A DNA stretch of 64,000 bases, from the NCBI GenBank assembly GCA_005116955.1, contig SWDI01000001.1:694660-758659 (forward strand). Direction: 5' to 3'. Positions 45,315 to 54,464 of the stretch are shown piece by piece. The notes below the pieces were generated by a model that was not told the DNA's origin, ran no database searches, and saw only the letters and a list, made by a program, of their open reading frames with translations. The DNA comes from Nitrospira sp. Its GTDB lineage: Bacteria; Nitrospirota; Nitrospiria; Nitrospirales; Nitrospiraceae. The stretch's first letter is position 1, and the number at the start of each line of letters is the position of its first letter. A program made the translations under genes and the position numbers.

Positions 45315-46199
45315 ATGGCTCTATCTGATTCTCGTCGGCAGAAACCTCTGGAAGTTTCCCGCCCTCTCGCGAAAGCCCTCATGACACTCTATGATTATCC
45401 GCACCCCCATCGACCGGGCTGCACCATCCGCGGCTACGATCGGCCACACGCCGTGCGAACAGCGAAGATGTGTGTGATCGTGGCCGACCGCCTTGGCCAT
45501 CCACGCGATCGGGTTCGGCTCTATCACGTTGCTTGTCTACTGCATGACCTGGGCCGCGCCGGCCTTGATCGGCAACTCTTTGGAACTATTTGGTCTTGGG
45601 CCAAGCAACGGGGTATTCCGACGAGGCCTCGTGAATGGCGTGCCCTTCACCCGAGGACGATGTATGGCCGGGAGACAGAAGCCTTCGTGTCGTTGTATCG
45701 CCAGGATCTGATGGCCTCCGGCGTGGCCATGGACTCATGGGCTGTCGAGCAGATCGAAATGCGGTTGGGTTATGCGCGACGTCTGGCCAGGCGATTGCGT
45801 GTGGTGAAGCCGACGTTGAAGACACTGGGCGTCGAGTGGACACCTTGGATGCAACAGGTGATGCTGTATTACTACTACCCGGAACGGCTGGCGAAGGCCA
45901 AGGCATGGGTGCGGCAATTGGCGGAGATTCTTGTTGCCTGCGAACAGTTTGAAGCCTACAGCAATCAGCGTCGGGGACGTGATTATTATGCTCGAAAAAA
46001 AGAAAGCTTGTCGGACGCCTTTGCGTATCTCGATAAGCTAGGGCAAGAAGGCATCCTGAGCGATCAAGTCTTGAGCGCGGTACGAGCGTTGACAGCAGAA
46101 GGGGTGTTCGATCCAATTTTGGAAGCAGCGCGAGGCGAGCCGCTGACCCGGAGCGACCGCCGCTATCTTCGTAGCCTCACGGGTTGGAGAAAAGGATGA
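45315..46199 (+). CDS. HD-domain protein (metal-dependent phosphohydrolase-like)
   Basis: 294-residue soluble protein with the HD fold: H45 (YDRPHAVRTAKM) and the HD pair H77/D78 in CLLHDLGRAGLD match the metal-binding signature, and a later helix-rich part (PRTMYGRETEAFVSLYRQDL...) is similar to HD-GYP-like proteins, though the GYP motif itself is not seen. It is a possible nucleotide or cyclic-nucleotide phosphohydrolase. Its stop overlaps the following YjbQ start (ATGA at 46196-46199), so it is cotranscribed with yjbQ and the protease upstream of the UBact-proteasome cluster. Confidence 0.82.
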   Translation: MALSDSRRQKPLEVSRPLAKALMTLYDYPHPHRPGCTIRGYDRPHAVRTAKMCVIVADRLGHPRDRVRLYHVACLLHDLGRAGLDRQLFGTIWSWAKQRGIPTRPREWRALHPRTMYGRETEAFVSLYRQDLMASGVAMDSWAVEQIEMRLGYARRLARRLRVVKPTLKTLGVEWTPWMQQVMLYYYYPERLAKAKAWVRQLAEILVACEQFEAYSNQRRGRDYYARKKESLSDAFAYLDKLGQEGILSDQVLSAVRALTAEGVFDPILEAARGEPLTRSDRRYLRSLTGWRKG

Positions 46200-46618
46200 G
46201 TGTCCACACCGTTTCCCTGACGATCCGTATGGAAGGCGGCACGCAGGTCGACAACATCACGAAATCCGTTGCCGATGCCTTGGCCGGTTCCAACCTCACC
46301 GCTGGAATTGTGACGGTATTCGTCAAACATACCACCGCCTCTGTCATGATTATTGAGGACGAACCAGGGATTCGTGCAGACACGAAAACGTTTTGGAATC
46401 GTCTCGTTCCTCCTGACGCTCGGTGGCAGCACAACAGGGTCAATCCAGGAGAAGACAACGGCCACAGCCATCTTCGAGGGCAACTCCAAGGGCCCTCTGT
46501 CACCATTCCGTTTGCGGCCGGTGCGCTTCTGCTTGGCACCTGGCAACAAATCGTGTTGGTGGATTTCGATACCCGTGCCAGAATGCGTGAACTCGTCGTG
46601 CAGGTCCTGGGTGAATAG
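46196..46618 (+). CDS. yjbQ: YjbQ/UPF0047 family protein
   Basis: 140-residue YjbQ-family protein, a trimeric alpha/beta fold of which the Escherichia coli member has been reported to have secondary thiamine-phosphate synthase activity; the physiological role is uncertain. Family marks are GIVTVFVKHTTASVMIIEDEPGIRAD, NGHSHLRGQLQGPSVTIPFAAGALLLGTWQQIVLVDFD. The start at 46196 overlaps the HD gene stop, and the gene's own stop overlaps the next start. Coupled translation makes a common expression level with the protease likely. Confidence 0.9.
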   Translation: MSVHTVSLTIRMEGGTQVDNITKSVADALAGSNLTAGIVTVFVKHTTASVMIIEDEPGIRADTKTFWNRLVPPDARWQHNRVNPGEDNGHSHLRGQLQGPSVTIPFAAGALLLGTWQQIVLVDFDTRARMRELVVQVLGE

Positions 46619-47729
46619 CCTCGCCAGATCTCTGACATTTTTCCTGGTTACGGCAACACTGTGCTCGTCGACCCATGCTGCCGAGTGGGGCAAGCCATTG
46701 GGTGCCGTCTATGACGGCCCTGAAGGGAAGCCGCGTCTAGTGACGCCCCCACCGACTGAGCTGAGTGCCGATGAACGGGCGACGATCACGGTGTTTGAAC
46801 GGGCAACCAAGTCCGTTGTGTTCATTGCCAACACAGCGATACAGCAAGATATCTGGTCTCTGGATGTCATGGAAGTTCCGCAGGGGTCGGGGTCTGGTTT
46901 TATTTGGAGTAAACAGGGCCATATCGTCACCAATTTTCATGTGATCTATGGGGCCAGCTCGATCAAGGTCACATTGGCCGATCGGAGCGAATACGAGGCG
47001 AGATTGGTCGGCGCCGATCCTGATCACGATTTGGCCGTGTTGCAAATTCAGGTGTTTGACGGTCATGTGGAGCCGTTAGCCGTTGGGGCTTCCAATGACT
47101 TGCGCGTGGGGCAAAAAGTACTGGCCATCGGAAATCCGTTCGGGCTCGATCATACGTTGACGACCGGAGTCGTGAGTGCATTGGGACGGACCATCAAATC
47201 CATGTCGAATCGGACGATTGAAGGTGTGATCCAGACCGATGCGGCGATCAATCCCGGCAACTCAGGCGGCCCGCTTCTGGATGGAGCTGGTCGATTGATC
47301 GGCGTGAATACGCAAATCGTGAGTCCGAGCGGGGCCTACGCCGGGATTGGGTTCGCCGTTCCCGTGGATACGGTGAATCGCATCGTTCCAGAGCTCATCA
47401 AGCACGGTAAGCTCATCCGACCAGGGTTGGGCGTCTCGCTCGTGCCGGACGCAATGGCGAAGCGATGGGGGATTAAAGGGGTCATCATTGGCAAGGTGAC
47501 GCGCGGCGGTGCCGCTGACCGTGCAGGGCTCAAGGGAGCGCGTGAAACCATGATGGGGCAGGTCCAGCTCGGCGACATCATTGTCTCAGCCGCCGGAAAG
47601 CCGGTAGCCACGATTGATGACCTGATGGATGTGATGGAAGCGCACAAAGTTGGTGAGCAGGTGAGTGTGGAGATTCTGCGTGGAAATCGGCGGGAAAAGA
47701 TTTCGGTGGTTCTCCAGGCCGTCAATTAG
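46611..47729 (+). CDS. HtrA/DegP-type periplasmic serine protease
   Basis: 372-residue protease with one PDZ domain. A signal peptide (1-24) leads to a trypsin-like domain with H110 (TNFHVIYG), D140 (DPDHDLAVLQI) and S218 (NPGNSGGPL), a complete catalytic triad. The PDZ domain follows (about 275-365; GVSLVPDAMAKRWGIKGVIIGKVTRGGAADRAGLKGA). It degrades or holds misfolded envelope proteins. I use the GTG at 46611 because it overlaps the YjbQ stop by 8 nt and directly begins a signal peptide; the frame upstream is the shadow of YjbQ. It is encoded immediately before the UBact-proteasome genes, so this may be a joint quality-control locus. Confidence 0.93.
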   Translation: MNSLARSLTFFLVTATLCSSTHAAEWGKPLGAVYDGPEGKPRLVTPPPTELSADERATITVFERATKSVVFIANTAIQQDIWSLDVMEVPQGSGSGFIWSKQGHIVTNFHVIYGASSIKVTLADRSEYEARLVGADPDHDLAVLQIQVFDGHVEPLAVGASNDLRVGQKVLAIGNPFGLDHTLTTGVVSALGRTIKSMSNRTIEGVIQTDAAINPGNSGGPLLDGAGRLIGVNTQIVSPSGAYAGIGFAVPVDTVNRIVPELIKHGKLIRPGLGVSLVPDAMAKRWGIKGVIIGKVTRGGAADRAGLKGARETMMGQVQLGDIIVSAAGKPVATIDDLMDVMEAHKVGEQVSVEILRGNRREKISVVLQAVN

Positions 47730-47794: not shown

Positions 47795-49531
47795 ATGGGT
47801 GATCGCAGAGCTTCTGAACAGGATGAATCCAACAATCGGAGTGATGAGTCGGCACTGAAGACAGGAACCGATCCGCTTGAGTTGATTGAGCAATGTCTGG
47901 CCTCATTTCCTGAGGGGGATGCTCGGCAGAAGCTGCTGTATAAGCTGCGCCATGCGGTGACGCTGTCTCAAGCCTCCCATCAGCAACGTGAACTGGAATT
48001 CAAGAAAGTCGGCGAGGTCGTTACCAAACTGACGGCACCAGCCAATCGAATCGGTATTTTACTGGATATTCCAGGTGAGGGCCTCGCCCGCATCGTCGTT
48101 GGTGGAGCTGAGTACTATGCCAACGTGGACCCCCGTGTTTCCAATACGGATCTGAAGATCGGAACTCAAATTCTGGTGAACGAAGCCTACGCGGTGATCA
48201 AGACGCTCGGGTACGATCAGAATGGGCCGATCTTGAAACTGGCCGAGGCCATGCTTGACGGACGGTTGCGGTTTGAACAGGAGATGGGCCGGCAATCATT
48301 GATTCTACAGCGGTCGACCGATCTCGTCGGCGTGGAGCTCAAGGCAGGTGATGAGATCCGCATTGATCCTAGCCACCGTGTGGCGATTGAGAAATTGGGT
48401 GATCGCAAAGCAAGCCGACATGTCCTTGACGAAACCCCGAAAATTACTTGGGAGCAGATTGGTGGACAGAATGAGGCAATCGCTGCTATTCGGAAGGCGA
48501 TTGAGTATCCACTACTTCATGCTAAGACTTTTGAGCAGTTCAAGTTTTCCCAACCCAAAGGTTTTCTTCTCTACGGGCCGCCTGGATGCGGCAAGACCCT
48601 TATCGGGCAAGCGGCCGCTGGTAGCTTGGCCAAGCTGGTCAGCGAATCCAAGCCAGAGCACCAGTCCGATGGGGACAAGCGTCCGCCGGTGACAGGCGGA
48701 GCATTCCTGCATGTAAAGGGGCCTGAAATCCTCAACATGTGGCTGGGGGAATCGGAACGGATGGTTCGTGACCTCTTCGAGCAAGCGAGGGCAAGACGCC
48801 GGGACGGCGCGTTGCCGTTTATCTTCATCGACGAAGCGGAGTCGATTTTGGGAACGCGACGCGCCATGCGTTCCTTCAATATCTCGAACACGCTCGTGCC
48901 AATGTTTTGCAGCGAAATGGACGGGATCGAGTCGCTGCACGACGTTGTCATCATCCTGGCTTCTAACCGCCCCGACTTGATCGATCCAGCGGTGCTGCGC
49001 CCAGGCCGCATTGATCGGAAAATCAAAGTCAGCCGGCCGAACAGGGATGCCGCGGCTGAGATTATGAGGGTCTATTTAACATCTGATCTGCCGCTGGATC
49101 CTGCGTTGGTCCAGGAACGAGGCGGTGAACACGTGCGAGCGGTGGCCTCGCTCGTAGAAGAAATCATCGAGTCCATCTTCCGTCGAACGGAGGAGAATCG
49201 GCTTCTGTCGATCAGGCTCAGGAACGGGCGGAACAAGGTGTTGTATCGCGGAGATCTCGTGAGCGGAGCCATCTTGGCCTCGATCGTTCAGCGTGCCAAG
49301 GAAAAGGCAATCGACCGTACAGTTCAGTCGGGGCAGCCGTCTGGCTTGCAACCCAAAGACTTCTTGGATTCCGTCTCGGCAGAATTTCGAGAGGGTGATA
49401 TGTTGCCGCCGGACGATGCGGCGGAGGAGTGGCTAAAGCTGCTGGATCATCACCCTGAACAGGTTGTTGGGGTTTCGTCGTTCCGGCGGGGGCGTCAGAC
49501 CGAAGAACGCCTTGTGAATCAGATCATTTGA
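47795..49531 (+). CDS. mpa: Proteasome-associated AAA+ ATPase (Mpa/ARC type)
   Basis: 578-residue hexameric unfoldase that would recognise UBact-tagged proteins and thread them into the 20S core. An N-terminal helical (coiled-coil) part with a charged start precedes tandem OB domains (about 80-215, GEGLARIVVGGAEYYANVDP; ELKAGDEIRIDP). The AAA domain has Walker A GPPGCGKT (261-268), FLHVKGPEILNMWLGESE, Walker B IFIDEAES (343-350) and arginine-finger region RPGRIDRKI. It ends LVNQII, without the terminal Tyr-Leu pair that docks actinobacterial Mpa to the proteasome. Order ATPase-dop-modifier-prcB-prcA-pafA is the usual Pup-type arrangement. ATG at 47795 has GGAGG upstream. Confidence 0.92.
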   Translation: MGDRRASEQDESNNRSDESALKTGTDPLELIEQCLASFPEGDARQKLLYKLRHAVTLSQASHQQRELEFKKVGEVVTKLTAPANRIGILLDIPGEGLARIVVGGAEYYANVDPRVSNTDLKIGTQILVNEAYAVIKTLGYDQNGPILKLAEAMLDGRLRFEQEMGRQSLILQRSTDLVGVELKAGDEIRIDPSHRVAIEKLGDRKASRHVLDETPKITWEQIGGQNEAIAAIRKAIEYPLLHAKTFEQFKFSQPKGFLLYGPPGCGKTLIGQAAAGSLAKLVSESKPEHQSDGDKRPPVTGGAFLHVKGPEILNMWLGESERMVRDLFEQARARRRDGALPFIFIDEAESILGTRRAMRSFNISNTLVPMFCSEMDGIESLHDVVIILASNRPDLIDPAVLRPGRIDRKIKVSRPNRDAAAEIMRVYLTSDLPLDPALVQERGGEHVRAVASLVEEIIESIFRRTEENRLLSIRLRNGRNKVLYRGDLVSGAILASIVQRAKEKAIDRTVQSGQPSGLQPKDFLDSVSAEFREGDMLPPDDAAEEWLKLLDHHPEQVVGVSSFRRGRQTEERLVNQII

Positions 49532-49608
49532 GAGATGGCCAACAGTTAACAAGCGCAGGCCATTCTAGTCGGTCAACCTGTTGTCTGTAGACCTGTCAGC
49601 TGACAATT

Positions 49609-51135
49609 ATGCGTCTTTTTGGCATTGAAACCGAATACGGGATCACGCGCGATGACGTGCCAGAGGTGGATCCGGTCGTCGAGTCGATGGAATTGGTGCG
49701 GGCCCATCTGGATGCTTCCTTTGAGCGGCGTTGGGACTATGCGGGTGAGGATCCCCACGAGGACGCTCGCGGCTTTCGTGCATCGGGCTTGCAGCAGGAT
49801 CGAGAGGAAGATGAGTTCGCACAACGCGATGCCCATCGCCCTTTTTCGTTTCATGACATGAAGAGCGATTTGGTGTTGCCCAACGGTGCGCGCTTCTACA
49901 ACGATCACACACATCCGGAATATTCGACGCCTGAGTGCCGAACGCTTCGAGACCTGCTGGCTCAGGATCGCGCGGGGGAACGTATCGTCCTACGCGCCGC
50001 CGAGCGACGTAATCGGGCGCTCGGTGGCCCGCATCTCCGGCTGTACAAAAACAACACAGATTTCCATGGCCACAGCTATGGTTGTCACGACAACTATCTC
50101 GTCTCGCGGGCCGTTCCCTTTCCGGATCTCGTTGCCGGCTTGATGCCGTTCTTGGTGAGCCGACAAGTCATCGCCGGCGCAGGAAAGGTCGGGACTGAAG
50201 CTCAGGAGTCCGGACATGTCCCAGGGTGGTATCAGCTCTCCCAACGCGCCGACTTTATGGAGGCTGAGTTGGGCGTCGATACGATGCACAACCGACCGAT
50301 TCTCAATACCAGAGATGAGCCTCATGCGGATCGGAGGAAATATCGGAGGCTCCATCTCATCATCGGCGATGCCAACATGTGCGAGTATGCAACGGCGCTC
50401 AAGGTCGGGACGACCAGGCTTGTGCTCGATCTCATCGAGCGAGGGGCTATGCCTCACATCGAGCTGGATCAGCCGGTGGCTGCCGTGAAACAGTTATCGC
50501 GCGATCCGGACCTGAAAGCAGTGGTTCGGCTCAAAGACGGACGCCGGCTTTCTGCTGTGGAGCTTCAAGCGCAGTACTGTGATGCGGCGCGCCGCGAGTT
50601 GGCTGGATCAGACGAAGAGGCGGATTGGCTATTGAATGAGTGGAGTAATACCTTGAGTCTGTTGTCACAAGACCGTTCACAGTTAGTGGGAAAGCTAGAT
50701 TGGGTCACAAAACAGTGGTTGCTCGAGACGTTTCTGCGAGAAGAGCGGATCGGCTGGGACGATCCCTGGTTGGCCAGCTTGGACTTGGAGTATCACAATA
50801 TCAACCCCGAACAAGGGCTGTACCTGGGATTGGAAGCCGAGGGGAAAGCTTGGCGGATGACGACCGACGAGGCAATTGACAAGGCGATTCGGAACGGTCC
50901 AAGCGATACCCGTGGTGGGTTGCGCGGACTTTGCGTACAGCGCTTTTCTGATCAGATTCAATCGATGCAATGGGAACGGATTCAGTTCGTGGGAAGGCTA
51001 CGCGCACATAGTCTGGACATGGGAGATCTCTTTGATCCACAGGAAGTCCGACGATGCATGGGGGTTTTTCAATGTGCCCATTCACCGGCTGATGCGCTGG
51101 CAACGTGGCGACACAGGAAGGATGGTGAGGCATGA
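49609..51135 (+). CDS. dop: Depupylase/deamidase homologue (Dop)
   Basis: 508-residue enzyme of the carboxylate-amine ligase-like fold. It carries the GIETEYG ATP/metal signature (5-11), the catalytic Asp D99 in GARFYNDHTHPEYSTPEC, and the RDEPHADRRKYRRLHLIIGDANMCEYATALKVGTT core. The longer loop before D99 (about residues 50-85) marks it as Dop rather than ligase. It would remove the modifier from substrates; because the modifier here already ends in Glu, deamidation of a C-terminal Gln is not needed. The ATG at 49609 follows the ATPase by 77 bases; its stop overlaps the modifier start (ATGA), so production of modifier and Dop is coupled. Confidence 0.9.
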   Translation: MRLFGIETEYGITRDDVPEVDPVVESMELVRAHLDASFERRWDYAGEDPHEDARGFRASGLQQDREEDEFAQRDAHRPFSFHDMKSDLVLPNGARFYNDHTHPEYSTPECRTLRDLLAQDRAGERIVLRAAERRNRALGGPHLRLYKNNTDFHGHSYGCHDNYLVSRAVPFPDLVAGLMPFLVSRQVIAGAGKVGTEAQESGHVPGWYQLSQRADFMEAELGVDTMHNRPILNTRDEPHADRRKYRRLHLIIGDANMCEYATALKVGTTRLVLDLIERGAMPHIELDQPVAAVKQLSRDPDLKAVVRLKDGRRLSAVELQAQYCDAARRELAGSDEEADWLLNEWSNTLSLLSQDRSQLVGKLDWVTKQWLLETFLREERIGWDDPWLASLDLEYHNINPEQGLYLGLEAEGKAWRMTTDEAIDKAIRNGPSDTRGGLRGLCVQRFSDQIQSMQWERIQFVGRLRAHSLDMGDLFDPQEVRRCMGVFQCAHSPADALATWRHRKDGEA

Positions 51136-51326
51136 CGCACAGTATGATGCCGGAACGACGTGAGGGGCCAGTTGATCCTATGCCGAAGTCGCCAAGTCCG
51201 CTGGATGAAGGCGGCGGGCCGCGACGGCCCGATACGGGATCGCCCGAGAAGGATAGCCTTATGAAACGGATGCGCAAGGTCGATCCCAAGCAGGCAGAAC
51301 GGTATAAGCAGCGGACGGGCGAATAG
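51132..51326 (+). CDS. ubact: UBact, Pup-like protein modifier
   Basis: 64-residue intrinsically disordered modifier, the Pup analogue of Nitrospirota and some other Gram-negative phyla. A Pro-rich start (PMPKSPSPLDEGGGPRRPDTGSP) is followed by a charged helix (DSLMKRMRKVDPKQAERYKQ) and the C-terminal RTGE. The terminal Glu side chain is the expected point of ligation to substrate lysines by PafA. It differs from actinobacterial Pup in lacking the GGE/GGQ end. It overlaps dop by 4 nt (ATGA). Short genes like this are often missed in annotation; its identity here is supported by both sequence and the full partner set around it. Confidence 0.92.
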   Translation: MTHSMMPERREGPVDPMPKSPSPLDEGGGPRRPDTGSPEKDSLMKRMRKVDPKQAERYKQRTGE

Positions 51327-51405
51327 GACCTGAGGGGGGGCGGTAGGCATAAGAATGGGGAGAAAGTTTTCCTCACCATTGCCCCCCACTGGAGCGGAGC
51401 GATAT

Positions 51406-52179
51406 ATGGGCATGCAGAGTGATTTCTATCAGCTGTTGAAAGAACAAGGGCATGTGTTTGGCGTGCCGAGCCAGACTGCGCGAGGGCAGGAACTGACCAC
51501 GGCTACGACGATCCTCGCGTTCAAGTACCGGGATGGGGTGCTGGTCGCTGGGGATCGGCGTGCGACGGCCGGCAATATGGTGATGTACGACCGCACTGAC
51601 AAGGTATTGGAGATCGATCGACATAGCGTCATGGCAATTGCCGGAGTGCCAGCGACCGCGTATGAAATGGCGCGCATACTTGAACATTCGTTCAAGTATT
51701 TTCGGCGGACACAGCTTCAGGAACTCAGTTTTGAGGGCAAACTCAGGGCTCTCTCAAAGTTGCTGAAAGACAACGTCCCGGCGGCGCTGGCGGGTACGGG
51801 TGCTGTGGTGCCGATCTTTGCCGGGTACGACTTGGAGCAGGAAGTGGCAAAGATTTATTTTTACGACATTCTCGGTGCGGAGTTCGAAGGAGTGGACTAT
51901 GCAGTATCCGGGTCCGGTTCACCGACCATTCGCGGAATCCTACATTACGTGAATACATGGGGTGAACAGCCGCTGAGCGCGATGCCGGAAGAGCAGGCAA
52001 CCGTTCAGGCATTACGACTGTTGACGAGTGCCGCAGAATTCGATAGCGCGACCGGAGGAGTCAACCGAGAAGCTGGTCTCTATCCGGTGATCAAATTCAT
52101 TACTGCTTCCGGTGTGCGCACGATGCCGGATGCGCAATTGAAGCCTCTCTTCGAGACAAAGGTTAGTCGCCATGTATGA
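51406..52179 (+). CDS. prcB: 20S proteasome beta subunit (PrcB)
   Basis: Catalytic subunit of the 20S core: 257 residues, including a 33-residue propeptide cut before a TTILAF segment so that the N-terminal Thr (residue 34) is exposed. Counting from it, Asp17 (VAGDRR) and Lys33 (RTDKVLEI) fall exactly at the family positions, and the SGSGSP and DSATGG elements are present, so the site should be active. I chose the ATG at 51406 (GGAG six bases upstream); the frame starts at 51355 as well. It overlaps prcA by 8 nt, fixing coordinated production of alpha and beta rings. Confidence 0.95.
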   Translation: MGMQSDFYQLLKEQGHVFGVPSQTARGQELTTATTILAFKYRDGVLVAGDRRATAGNMVMYDRTDKVLEIDRHSVMAIAGVPATAYEMARILEHSFKYFRRTQLQELSFEGKLRALSKLLKDNVPAALAGTGAVVPIFAGYDLEQEVAKIYFYDILGAEFEGVDYAVSGSGSPTIRGILHYVNTWGEQPLSAMPEEQATVQALRLLTSAAEFDSATGGVNREAGLYPVIKFITASGVRTMPDAQLKPLFETKVSRHV

Positions 52180-52972
52180 AGAGCCATATAAATGGGTTGA
52201 AGCGGTCGGCAATCGTCGGACCTATCTCGACGAACAGTTTAAGGAGGGAGCCCCTGTTGTCGGAGTGACGTGTGAGCGCGGCATTCTGCTCATGACGATG
52301 AGCAAGGGCACTCCCAAGCTCTATGAGATTTACGATCGTCTAGCCCTGGGTGGGATGGGCCACCCGGCTGATCTCGAGAAGCTGCGTTTCAATCTGTTGG
52401 AGATGGCTCACGTCGAAGGATTTAATCGCTCCGCTTCCGATGTGACCGGAGGCCGTCTGGTGAAGTACGGGATGGCGCCGACAATCAAGCAGGCGTTCGA
52501 AGAGGTATTCAAAGCCCCTTTTATCGTGAAAATCTTGCTGGCAGAGATCGGACAAAAAGCCGGGAAGGACGGGTTCTTGACGATCAATTACGACGGGACG
52601 TTTGAGGAAAAGAGCCAGTATGCAGTGCTTGCCGCGACGTCGGCGGTCGAGCAGAAGATGGCTGGATATCTCCGAGAACAGTCTCGTGCGTCTCTTGCGG
52701 ACGCTGTAGGTACGGCGATTCGCACGTGGGCGGTCGGTGATCGAGCGCAGCGACGAGTCCTGGACGAGGGAGAAGGCCATGACGAGGCGAGGACCAGCCA
52801 GGTGACGGACGCTGAGACACTCTATGCCTATCTGCGGCGATGTATCGCTGAAAAGACGGTCGAATGTGCCTTGCTTGATCGTCATGTGCAAGGACCCTCC
52901 AAGTATCGAGCCCTTGGGGTCGATGAATTGAAAACCTTGCTCCCCAATGAGCTGAGCCCATCACTCTCGTAA
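52172..52972 (+). CDS. prcA: 20S proteasome alpha subunit (PrcA)
   Basis: 266-residue structural subunit whose heptameric rings cap the core and gate substrate entry. It opens YEEPYKWVEAVGNRRTYLDEQFKEGAPVVGVTCERGILLMTM and lacks the catalytic Thr, as expected; the middle holds the conserved IYDRLALGGMGHPADLEKLR and GRLVKYGMAPTIKQAF. A charged tail (EGEGHDEARTSQVTDAETL) follows. It overlaps prcB (ATG 52172, before its stop) and ends 4 nt before the pafA ATG. Within the family it is somewhat diverged, matching the divergent ATPase tail. Confidence 0.93.
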   Translation: MYEEPYKWVEAVGNRRTYLDEQFKEGAPVVGVTCERGILLMTMSKGTPKLYEIYDRLALGGMGHPADLEKLRFNLLEMAHVEGFNRSASDVTGGRLVKYGMAPTIKQAFEEVFKAPFIVKILLAEIGQKAGKDGFLTINYDGTFEEKSQYAVLAATSAVEQKMAGYLREQSRASLADAVGTAIRTWAVGDRAQRRVLDEGEGHDEARTSQVTDAETLYAYLRRCIAEKTVECALLDRHVQGPSKYRALGVDELKTLLPNELSPSLS

Positions 52973-52976
52973 TAGC

Positions 52977-54464
52977 ATGTTGAATCGTATCTTCGGTTTA
53001 GAGACTGAATACGGACTCTTGATCCACGAGGATCGACCGGACCATTCTCCGACGTGGTTTGCACATAAGATTCGTGACCATCTCTTTCAGGTTCAGCGGC
53101 GGGGTGTGCTGGACTTGCACCATCGAGGGCATGATGAGCCTCCAGGCAATGGGGGATTTCTTACCAACGCCGGACGAATTTATTTGGACATGGGGCATTT
53201 GGAGTATGCTTCACCGGAATGTCATTCCCTCATGGATGTCGTGGCGTCGGACCGTGCTGGGGATCTCTTGTTGCAGCGAACGATCGAAGCTCTTGGGTTC
53301 TGTGACCAGGTATCCTTGATCAAGAACAACATCGACCATGAGACGGATGCGACCTTTGGCTCGCATGAGAACTACCTGGTGCCCCGGCGGTTCCCTTTTT
53401 CGAGGAGCGGGATGGCTCCGCTCGTGACGTTTCTTGTGACCAGGCAGATTTTTACCGGCTCTGGGCGTGTCGGTTCCGCCCCCCTCCAGGATGCCTGGAT
53501 TCAGATGGATCGGTTGCTCGTGCCACGTTCGACGTTTGGGACGCAGCCTATATCGGAGCTGCCCTTTCAAATCTCCCAGCGTGCCGACTATATCGTGAAC
53601 GATTTCTTCGAATGGGTGCAGCAGAATCGGGCGATTGTGAATACGAGAGATGAACCGTTGGCGGACCCCAATCAATACCGACGGATTCATCTGTTGCTGG
53701 GCGATTCCAATATGGCTGAATATGCGACGGCATTGAAGCTCGGTACGACCGGGCTGGTGTTGCAGCTGATTGAGGAGGGACATGCGCCTCAAGAATTGGA
53801 AATCGACGAACCGGTGGAAGCGCTTCAAGAGATTTCACAGGATCAAGAACGGCGCTGGCTGGTCCGGTTACAGTCTCACAAGATGATGTCGGCTGTGGAT
53901 ATTCAAGAACGGTTTCTTGACTGTGCCGTCCGACATTACAGCGGGCAGGATGAAGAGACCGATTGGGTTCTTGCCCAATGGGCATCAGTGCTCCATGATC
54001 TGCGCGGCGATTATCAGAAGCTCGTTGGGCGTGTCGATTGGGCGTCCAAACTGTGGTTGCTGAACTGCTTCCGAGAAGCGGAGCATGTCGAGTGGACCGA
54101 TCCTATGCTGAAGAGTTTAGACTTGGAGTATCATAACCTGAATCCAGCAAAGGGGCTGTATCACGGATTATTGGAAGAGGGCCGTGTCCCTCGTGTGACG
54201 ACGGACCGCCTCATTGATCTCGCAATGGACACCGCACCAAAAAACACTCGTGCCTACGGCCGCAGTGAGCTGGTTAGATATCTTCTGAGTGAGCGGCCCG
54301 CTTCAGTGGCGGATCAGCTTCCAGCCGCTGATGGCTTATTCCCTTCCTATGTCATCAATTGGTCGATCTTCCAAGTGAGGGGTCGCGCCCCGTTTCCCAT
54401 GCCGGACCCGTTTAAGACCTATCTGAAAGATGTGCGGACACATCTCGACAGCGTGATCGTCTAA
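52977..54464 (+). CDS. pafA: Pup/UBact ligase (PafA)
   Basis: 495-residue ligase that would phosphorylate the C-terminal Glu of UBact with ATP and join it to substrate lysines. It shares the Dop fold but lacks the long Dop loop: FGLETEYGLL (6-15), catalytic D71 in GRIYLDMGHLEYASPEC, NIDHETDATFGSHENYLVPRR, NTRDEPLADPNQYRRIHLLLGDSNMAEYATALKLGTTGL and YHNLNPAKGLYHGL. It starts 4 bases after the alpha-subunit stop. Presence of both this and dop shows that tagging and its removal can occur in this organism. A gene of unrelated function follows, so this is the last gene of the proteasome operon. Confidence 0.93.
   Translation: MLNRIFGLETEYGLLIHEDRPDHSPTWFAHKIRDHLFQVQRRGVLDLHHRGHDEPPGNGGFLTNAGRIYLDMGHLEYASPECHSLMDVVASDRAGDLLLQRTIEALGFCDQVSLIKNNIDHETDATFGSHENYLVPRRFPFSRSGMAPLVTFLVTRQIFTGSGRVGSAPLQDAWIQMDRLLVPRSTFGTQPISELPFQISQRADYIVNDFFEWVQQNRAIVNTRDEPLADPNQYRRIHLLLGDSNMAEYATALKLGTTGLVLQLIEEGHAPQELEIDEPVEALQEISQDQERRWLVRLQSHKMMSAVDIQERFLDCAVRHYSGQDEETDWVLAQWASVLHDLRGDYQKLVGRVDWASKLWLLNCFREAEHVEWTDPMLKSLDLEYHNLNPAKGLYHGLLEEGRVPRVTTDRLIDLAMDTAPKNTRAYGRSELVRYLLSERPASVADQLPAADGLFPSYVINWSIFQVRGRAPFPMPDPFKTYLKDVRTHLDSVIV

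Follow-up and report, generated by a model that had tools for sequence, protein, structure and literature searches.

The window analyzed here, a stretch of 64,000 nucleotides from Nitrospira sp., contains a UBact-proteasome operon on the plus strand (positions 47795-54464), in which six open reading frames follow one another in the order ATPase, Dop, UBact, PrcB, PrcA and PafA. The first-pass annotation had called this run a complete operon for UBact tagging and the proteasome, and the description stands: all six frames are present where they had been placed, the tag passes the curated UBact cut-offs (PF20513 and NF033388), and the family matches of all six products are far beyond chance. The parts of the operon, with their family matches, are as follows.

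47795-49531, plus strand: UBact-side proteasomal ATPase (Mpa/ARC-like), 578 aa, with proteasomal OB domains, an AAA domain, the pore loop MWLG and the C-terminus NQII, without an HbYX/GQYL tyrosine (Pfam AAA 6.6e-29; Prot_ATP_ID_OB_N 4.2e-15)
49609-51135, plus strand: Dop-like hydrolase/deamidase, 508 aa, with the Dop-loop and catalytic D99 (Pup_ligase 1.1e-166)
51132-51326, plus strand: UBact, 64 aa, ending YKQRTGE (PF20513 1.6e-20; NF033388 1.1e-21)
51355-52179, plus strand: PrcB, proteasome beta subunit, 274-aa frame (family match 1.9e-24)
52172-52972, plus strand: PrcA, proteasome alpha subunit (Proteasome 5.3e-5; bacterial alpha family TIGR03691 1.1e-19)
52977-54464, plus strand: PafA-like UBact ligase, 495 aa, without the Dop-loop, catalytic D71 (Pup_ligase 1.2e-127)

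The frames of dop and ubact overlap by 4 nt (51132-51135) and those of prcB and prcA by 8 nt (52172-52179), both as had been claimed. The catalytic residues read from the sequence in the first pass are likewise borne out by alignment to solved enzymes, in which D99 of Dop falls on D94 of the Acidothermus enzyme (AcDop) and D71 of PafA on D64 of the Corynebacterium enzyme (CgPafA), both positions being invariant, and by an alignment of PrcB in which Thr1, Asp17 and Lys33 are all present. In the 274-aa PrcB frame Thr1 is residue 51, and the start of this frame at 51355 is uncertain; it may be near 51406 instead, since PrcB in relatives is most often 257 aa long (19 loci), the length that such a start would give. 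The residue preceding Thr1 is Ala, which was considered as a peculiarity and rejected: it is frequent among UBact-side sequences, and the genome's own Pup-side PrcB has it too. In the operon's alpha subunit the pocket Lys (the column of Mtb K52) is conserved. The structure model of PafA (mean pLDDT 57.7) is too weak to use.

Directly upstream and on the same strand (45315-47729) lie genes for an HD-domain protein, a YjbQ-like protein and an HtrA-like protease, with 65 nt between the end of the HtrA-like gene and the ATPase start. The arrangement is syntenic among close Nitrospira relatives, and, as the synteny is confined to these, the three genes were not counted as operon members.

The UBact tag

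The tag scores 73 bits against PF20513 (cut-off 27.8), with residues 23-64 aligned to profile positions 2-43 of 43, and 76.8 bits against NF033388 (cut-off 35). Its RTGE end had been read as a departure from GGE/GGQ, and its length of "only 64 residues" as a peculiarity, and neither view holds. An end in GGE or GGQ is the rule for Pup; RTGE is the norm of the UBact family and no exception to it, being found at 66 of the 73 retrieved loci (near-duplicates included), with RTGQ at 6 and RSGQ at 1, and a length of 64 residues is normal for UBact. R61 and G63 do not vary among 17 diverse UBact sequences.

Purifying selection on the UBact frame is strong, with changes mostly at third positions and dN/dS values of 0.018-0.124 in the usable comparisons with relatives (0.297 for a near-identical pair separated by just two differences), which makes it unlikely that the 64-codon frame goes untranslated, a possibility that the first-pass annotation had itself named. 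In the AlphaFold2 model the N-terminal half of UBact is of low confidence, and two C-terminal helices are predicted (38-50 and 52-62).

Among very close Nitrospira relatives, the last residue of UBact varies between Q and E (L038:6001-6195 versus L037 and L040), so that a requirement for Dop to deamidate the tag can come and go within a short evolutionary time. A second UBact-like match in one relative (G120; 26 bits, below the cut-off) lies antisense to a transporter ORF and was discarded as spurious. One metagenome-assembled genome (L033:109-9155) contains two tandem UBact operons, the second without the ATPase and part of Dop, as the result of either a duplication or an assembly artefact.

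The sole likeness between the UBact and Pup tags is the tail pattern Y/F-x-Q-[KR]-x-G-[EQ]. A descent of UBact from Pup was considered: the last ten residues and a shuffle test on a single sequence pair point to similarity, but a comparison of the full tag profiles does not support homology (hhalign probability 0.6%). In Pfam the operon's tag matches UBact only, even at E up to 10, and it does not match the Pup family (PF05639, TIGR03687).

A Pup-type system in the same genome

The same genome contains four Dop/PafA domains, not two, and two bacterial-type beta subunits, which the first-pass annotation could not see. A second set of genes lies at two further places.

L109:4609-10880 (G000:C6): canonical Pup-type operon, ATPase2-Dop2-PrcB2-PrcA2-PafA2, without a tag gene
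L110:6647-6844 (G000:C3): orphan pup, 65 codons, product ending VQKGGE, flanked by recJ and the gene of a proton-pumping pyrophosphatase

The gap between dop and prcB in the operon on contig C6 is only 23 nt and holds no tag gene, and the product of the orphan pup matches solved Pup chains. All six proteins of this second set exceed the Pup-system equivalog cut-offs (ATPase 740, Dop 554, PrcB 302, PrcA 309, PafA 561 and Pup 61.6 bits), whereas the UBact-operon proteins are below all five NCBIfam Pup-system equivalog cut-offs (ATPase 432 against 504.75, TIGR03689; Dop 470 against 492, TIGR03688; PrcB 168 against 192; PrcA 71 against 139; PafA 312 against 551 bits). Within the same genome, the UBact series and the Pup series are 29-45% identical. 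Four of the Pup-side proteins (ATPase, PrcB, PrcA and PafA) have more identity with the corresponding actinobacterial proteins than with those of the UBact side (e.g., 58% versus 38% for the ATPase and 51% versus 29% for PrcA), and the Pup-side Dop is about equally identical to both. Since the Pup-side proteins are nearer to the actinobacterial than to the UBact-side ones, the UBact system is no recent copy of the Pup system.

The separation of pup from its operon is general in the order to which this Nitrospira sp. belongs, where pup lies within 1 kb of its Dop in none of the 95 scored genomes, as against 19 of 20 elsewhere in Nitrospirota. Operon-based surveys would overlook such an orphan pup and wrongly infer UBact alone in these bacteria. 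The closed chromosome of the cultured Nitrospira moscoviensis carries both the UBact and the Pup sets, with pup ~49 kb from its Dop; the dual system is therefore no binning artefact, and uncultured material is not needed for its study.

Distribution and origin of the two systems

The conserved gene order for which the first-pass annotation had proposed searching Nitrospirota genomes is indeed found. UBact is present in 102 of the 296 sampled Nitrospirota genomes (about a third), the order of the operon genes is the same in essentially all relatives, and PrcA and PrcB are kept in nearly every one. Of the named relatives taken from a genome collection, nearly all belong to Nitrospira or Nitrospirales, with one Fimbriimonadaceae in addition. 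This distribution places the window in Nitrospira or a near relative. The operon is ordinary for the phylum and expected in Nitrospira, and adds one more species with a known system. In the Fimbriimonadaceae genome (Armatimonadota), Dop, UBact and PrcB lie together (L084:4072-6490), a second Dop/PafA domain is located on another contig, and Pup was not found.

Enzyme pairs sort one to one with tags. Nearly all UBact genomes (99/102) also contain pup, and exactly four Dop/PafA domains (two pairs) occur in 92 of these 99 genomes, compared with two domains in 34 of the 41 Pup-only genomes. Three genomes contain UBact only; two of them, both from one genus, have two domains, and the third, with four, is a fragmented assembly and may simply miss its pup contig. 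Best matches are pure with respect to series, every UBact-operon gene leading to the UBact series and every Pup-operon gene to the Pup series. Tags and enzyme pairs come and go together.

When 65 sequences of Dop and PafA are placed in one tree, the UBact Dop joins the UBact PafA, apart from all Pup-side and actinobacterial enzymes, and the split between the UBact pair and the Pup pair has an ultrafast bootstrap of 96 and an SH-aLRT of 99. Such a grouping would mean separate duplications. The alternative, with just one old duplication, is worse by 18.4 log units but is not rejected (AU p = 0.10), and a published tree has one ancient Dop/PafA duplication (PMC7947786). Separate duplications, which the tree favors, are therefore a possibility beside a single one, and the split might also be an effect of gene conversion or of long branches. 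It is a possible, tentative reading that most Nitrospira have two insulated lines together with a UBact ligase/hydrolase pair from a duplication of its own, distinct from that behind the actinobacterial PafA and Dop. If the UBact pair did arise in this way, one enzyme fold would have given rise to a tag ligase on two occasions.

Two probable disposal lines in one cell

The C-terminal Tyr motif of Mpa/ARC (GQYL-like) docks on the 20S proteasome. A penultimate Tyr is found in all 22 Pup-side ATPases, which end in GHY[LF] and so resemble Mpa with its GQYL, and in none of the 64 UBact-side ATPases, which end mostly in NQII, SQIV or NHII, with IE in some of the deeper ones. Pore loop 1 is divided in the same way, reading MW[LV]G in 64/64 UBact-side and KYVG in 22/22 Pup-side ATPases. 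Walker A is identical in both groups, and the alpha-subunit pocket Lys is kept in 66/66 UBact-side and 22/22 Pup-side proteins. As a hypothesis, each ATPase would dock on its own barrel, the UBact side by means of a different tail motif, and the cell would contain two insulated tagging-degradation lines. The pocket Lys and the tag tail being shared, cross-talk between the UBact and Pup systems is possible.

It is quite likely that the operon of the window is a working UBact-proteasome operon and that a second, Pup-based set acts in the same cell, the two largely insulated. According to this proposal, PafA would work in the direction of conjugation, activating with ATP the side-chain carboxylate of UBact Glu64 and joining UBact to lysines of its targets; prior deamidation would not be needed, because UBact already ends in Glu, and Dop would serve mainly in the opposite direction, that of tag removal. 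The operon's own ATPase would recognize the disordered UBact tag, unfold the target and pass it on to the PrcA/PrcB barrel encoded in the same operon, where cleavage would proceed via Thr1. The second set (the operon on C6 and the orphan pup on C3) would do the same job with Pup. The natural pairing of two complete tag/ligase/hydrolase/ATPase/proteasome sets in one cell is a useful part, and it makes testable how cells keep two look-alike disposal tags apart.

A cell with two such sets might instead share its parts freely, UBact and Pup being alternative tags for either ligase and either proteasome and the second operon providing redundancy. The tail common to both tags, the same pocket Lys in both series and the same catalytic residues in both enzyme pairs speak for sharing of this kind, but it is rather unlikely given that four Dop/PafA domains accompany both tags and two accompany one, with joint gain and loss, that ATPase C-termini and pore loops differ between the series without exception, and that the series are only 29-45% identical in one genome. 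A doubtful reading, and one less probable than free sharing, is that UBact is mainly a reversible mark, as in proteasome-lacking pupylators such as Corynebacterium, with degradation as a side role. The UBact ATPase is indeed without the Tyr motif by which Mpa/ARC dock on the 20S; nevertheless, PrcA and PrcB are kept in the operon of nearly every relative, with Thr1 and the docking-pocket Lys intact, and the recurrence of an alternative tail (most often NQII) suggests another docking motif rather than a loss.

That the operon is decaying, or is not expressed as a tagging system, is very improbable. No sigma-70-like promoter above chance was found upstream of the operon, a result in keeping with decay, although the promoters of this organism may not fit that consensus, and promoter and terminator scans of the operon gave sites no commoner than in shuffled sequence. 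Against decay stand the intact catalytic residues throughout, the low dN/dS of UBact (mostly 0.018-0.124) and the occurrence of the same operon in about a third of the sampled Nitrospirota.

The UBact conjugation-proteasome system was reportedly named from Nitrospirae and other Gram-negative phyla by Lehmann et al. in 2017, and both the tag and the operon are already known, with curated families. The operon of the window resembles that known system (PF20513, NF033388) in tag family, with a full C-terminal match, in gene set and order and in its RTG[EQ] end, and differs from it in nothing of substance. With the actinobacterial Pup-proteasome (Mpa/ARC, Dop, Pup, PrcBA, PafA) it has in common the gene order, homologous enzymes, the catalytic Asp, a Thr-protease barrel and a small tag with C-terminal G-[EQ]. 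It differs in a tag body that is unrelated by profile and ends in RTGE instead of KGGE/KGGQ, in five partners that fall below the equivalog cut-offs, and in an ATPase with a Trp pore loop and without a GQYL-like end.

The literature searched, the founding UBact paper not among it, contained nothing on how Pup and UBact coexist across Nitrospira, on the orphan pup or on the difference in ATPase tails, and no priority is claimed for the dual-system points. A double system (L1 and L2) in Leptospirillum ferrooxidans was recorded in 2012, with an L2 tag that "lacks the terminal GGE" (PMC3511204). The L2 tag of L. ferrooxidans is most likely UBact. As in the present case, a Nitrospirota genome there holds two complete copies that diverge in sequence; they are described as identical in genetic context (PMC3511204, Figure 2 legend), whereas in Nitrospira sp. 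pup has left its operon.
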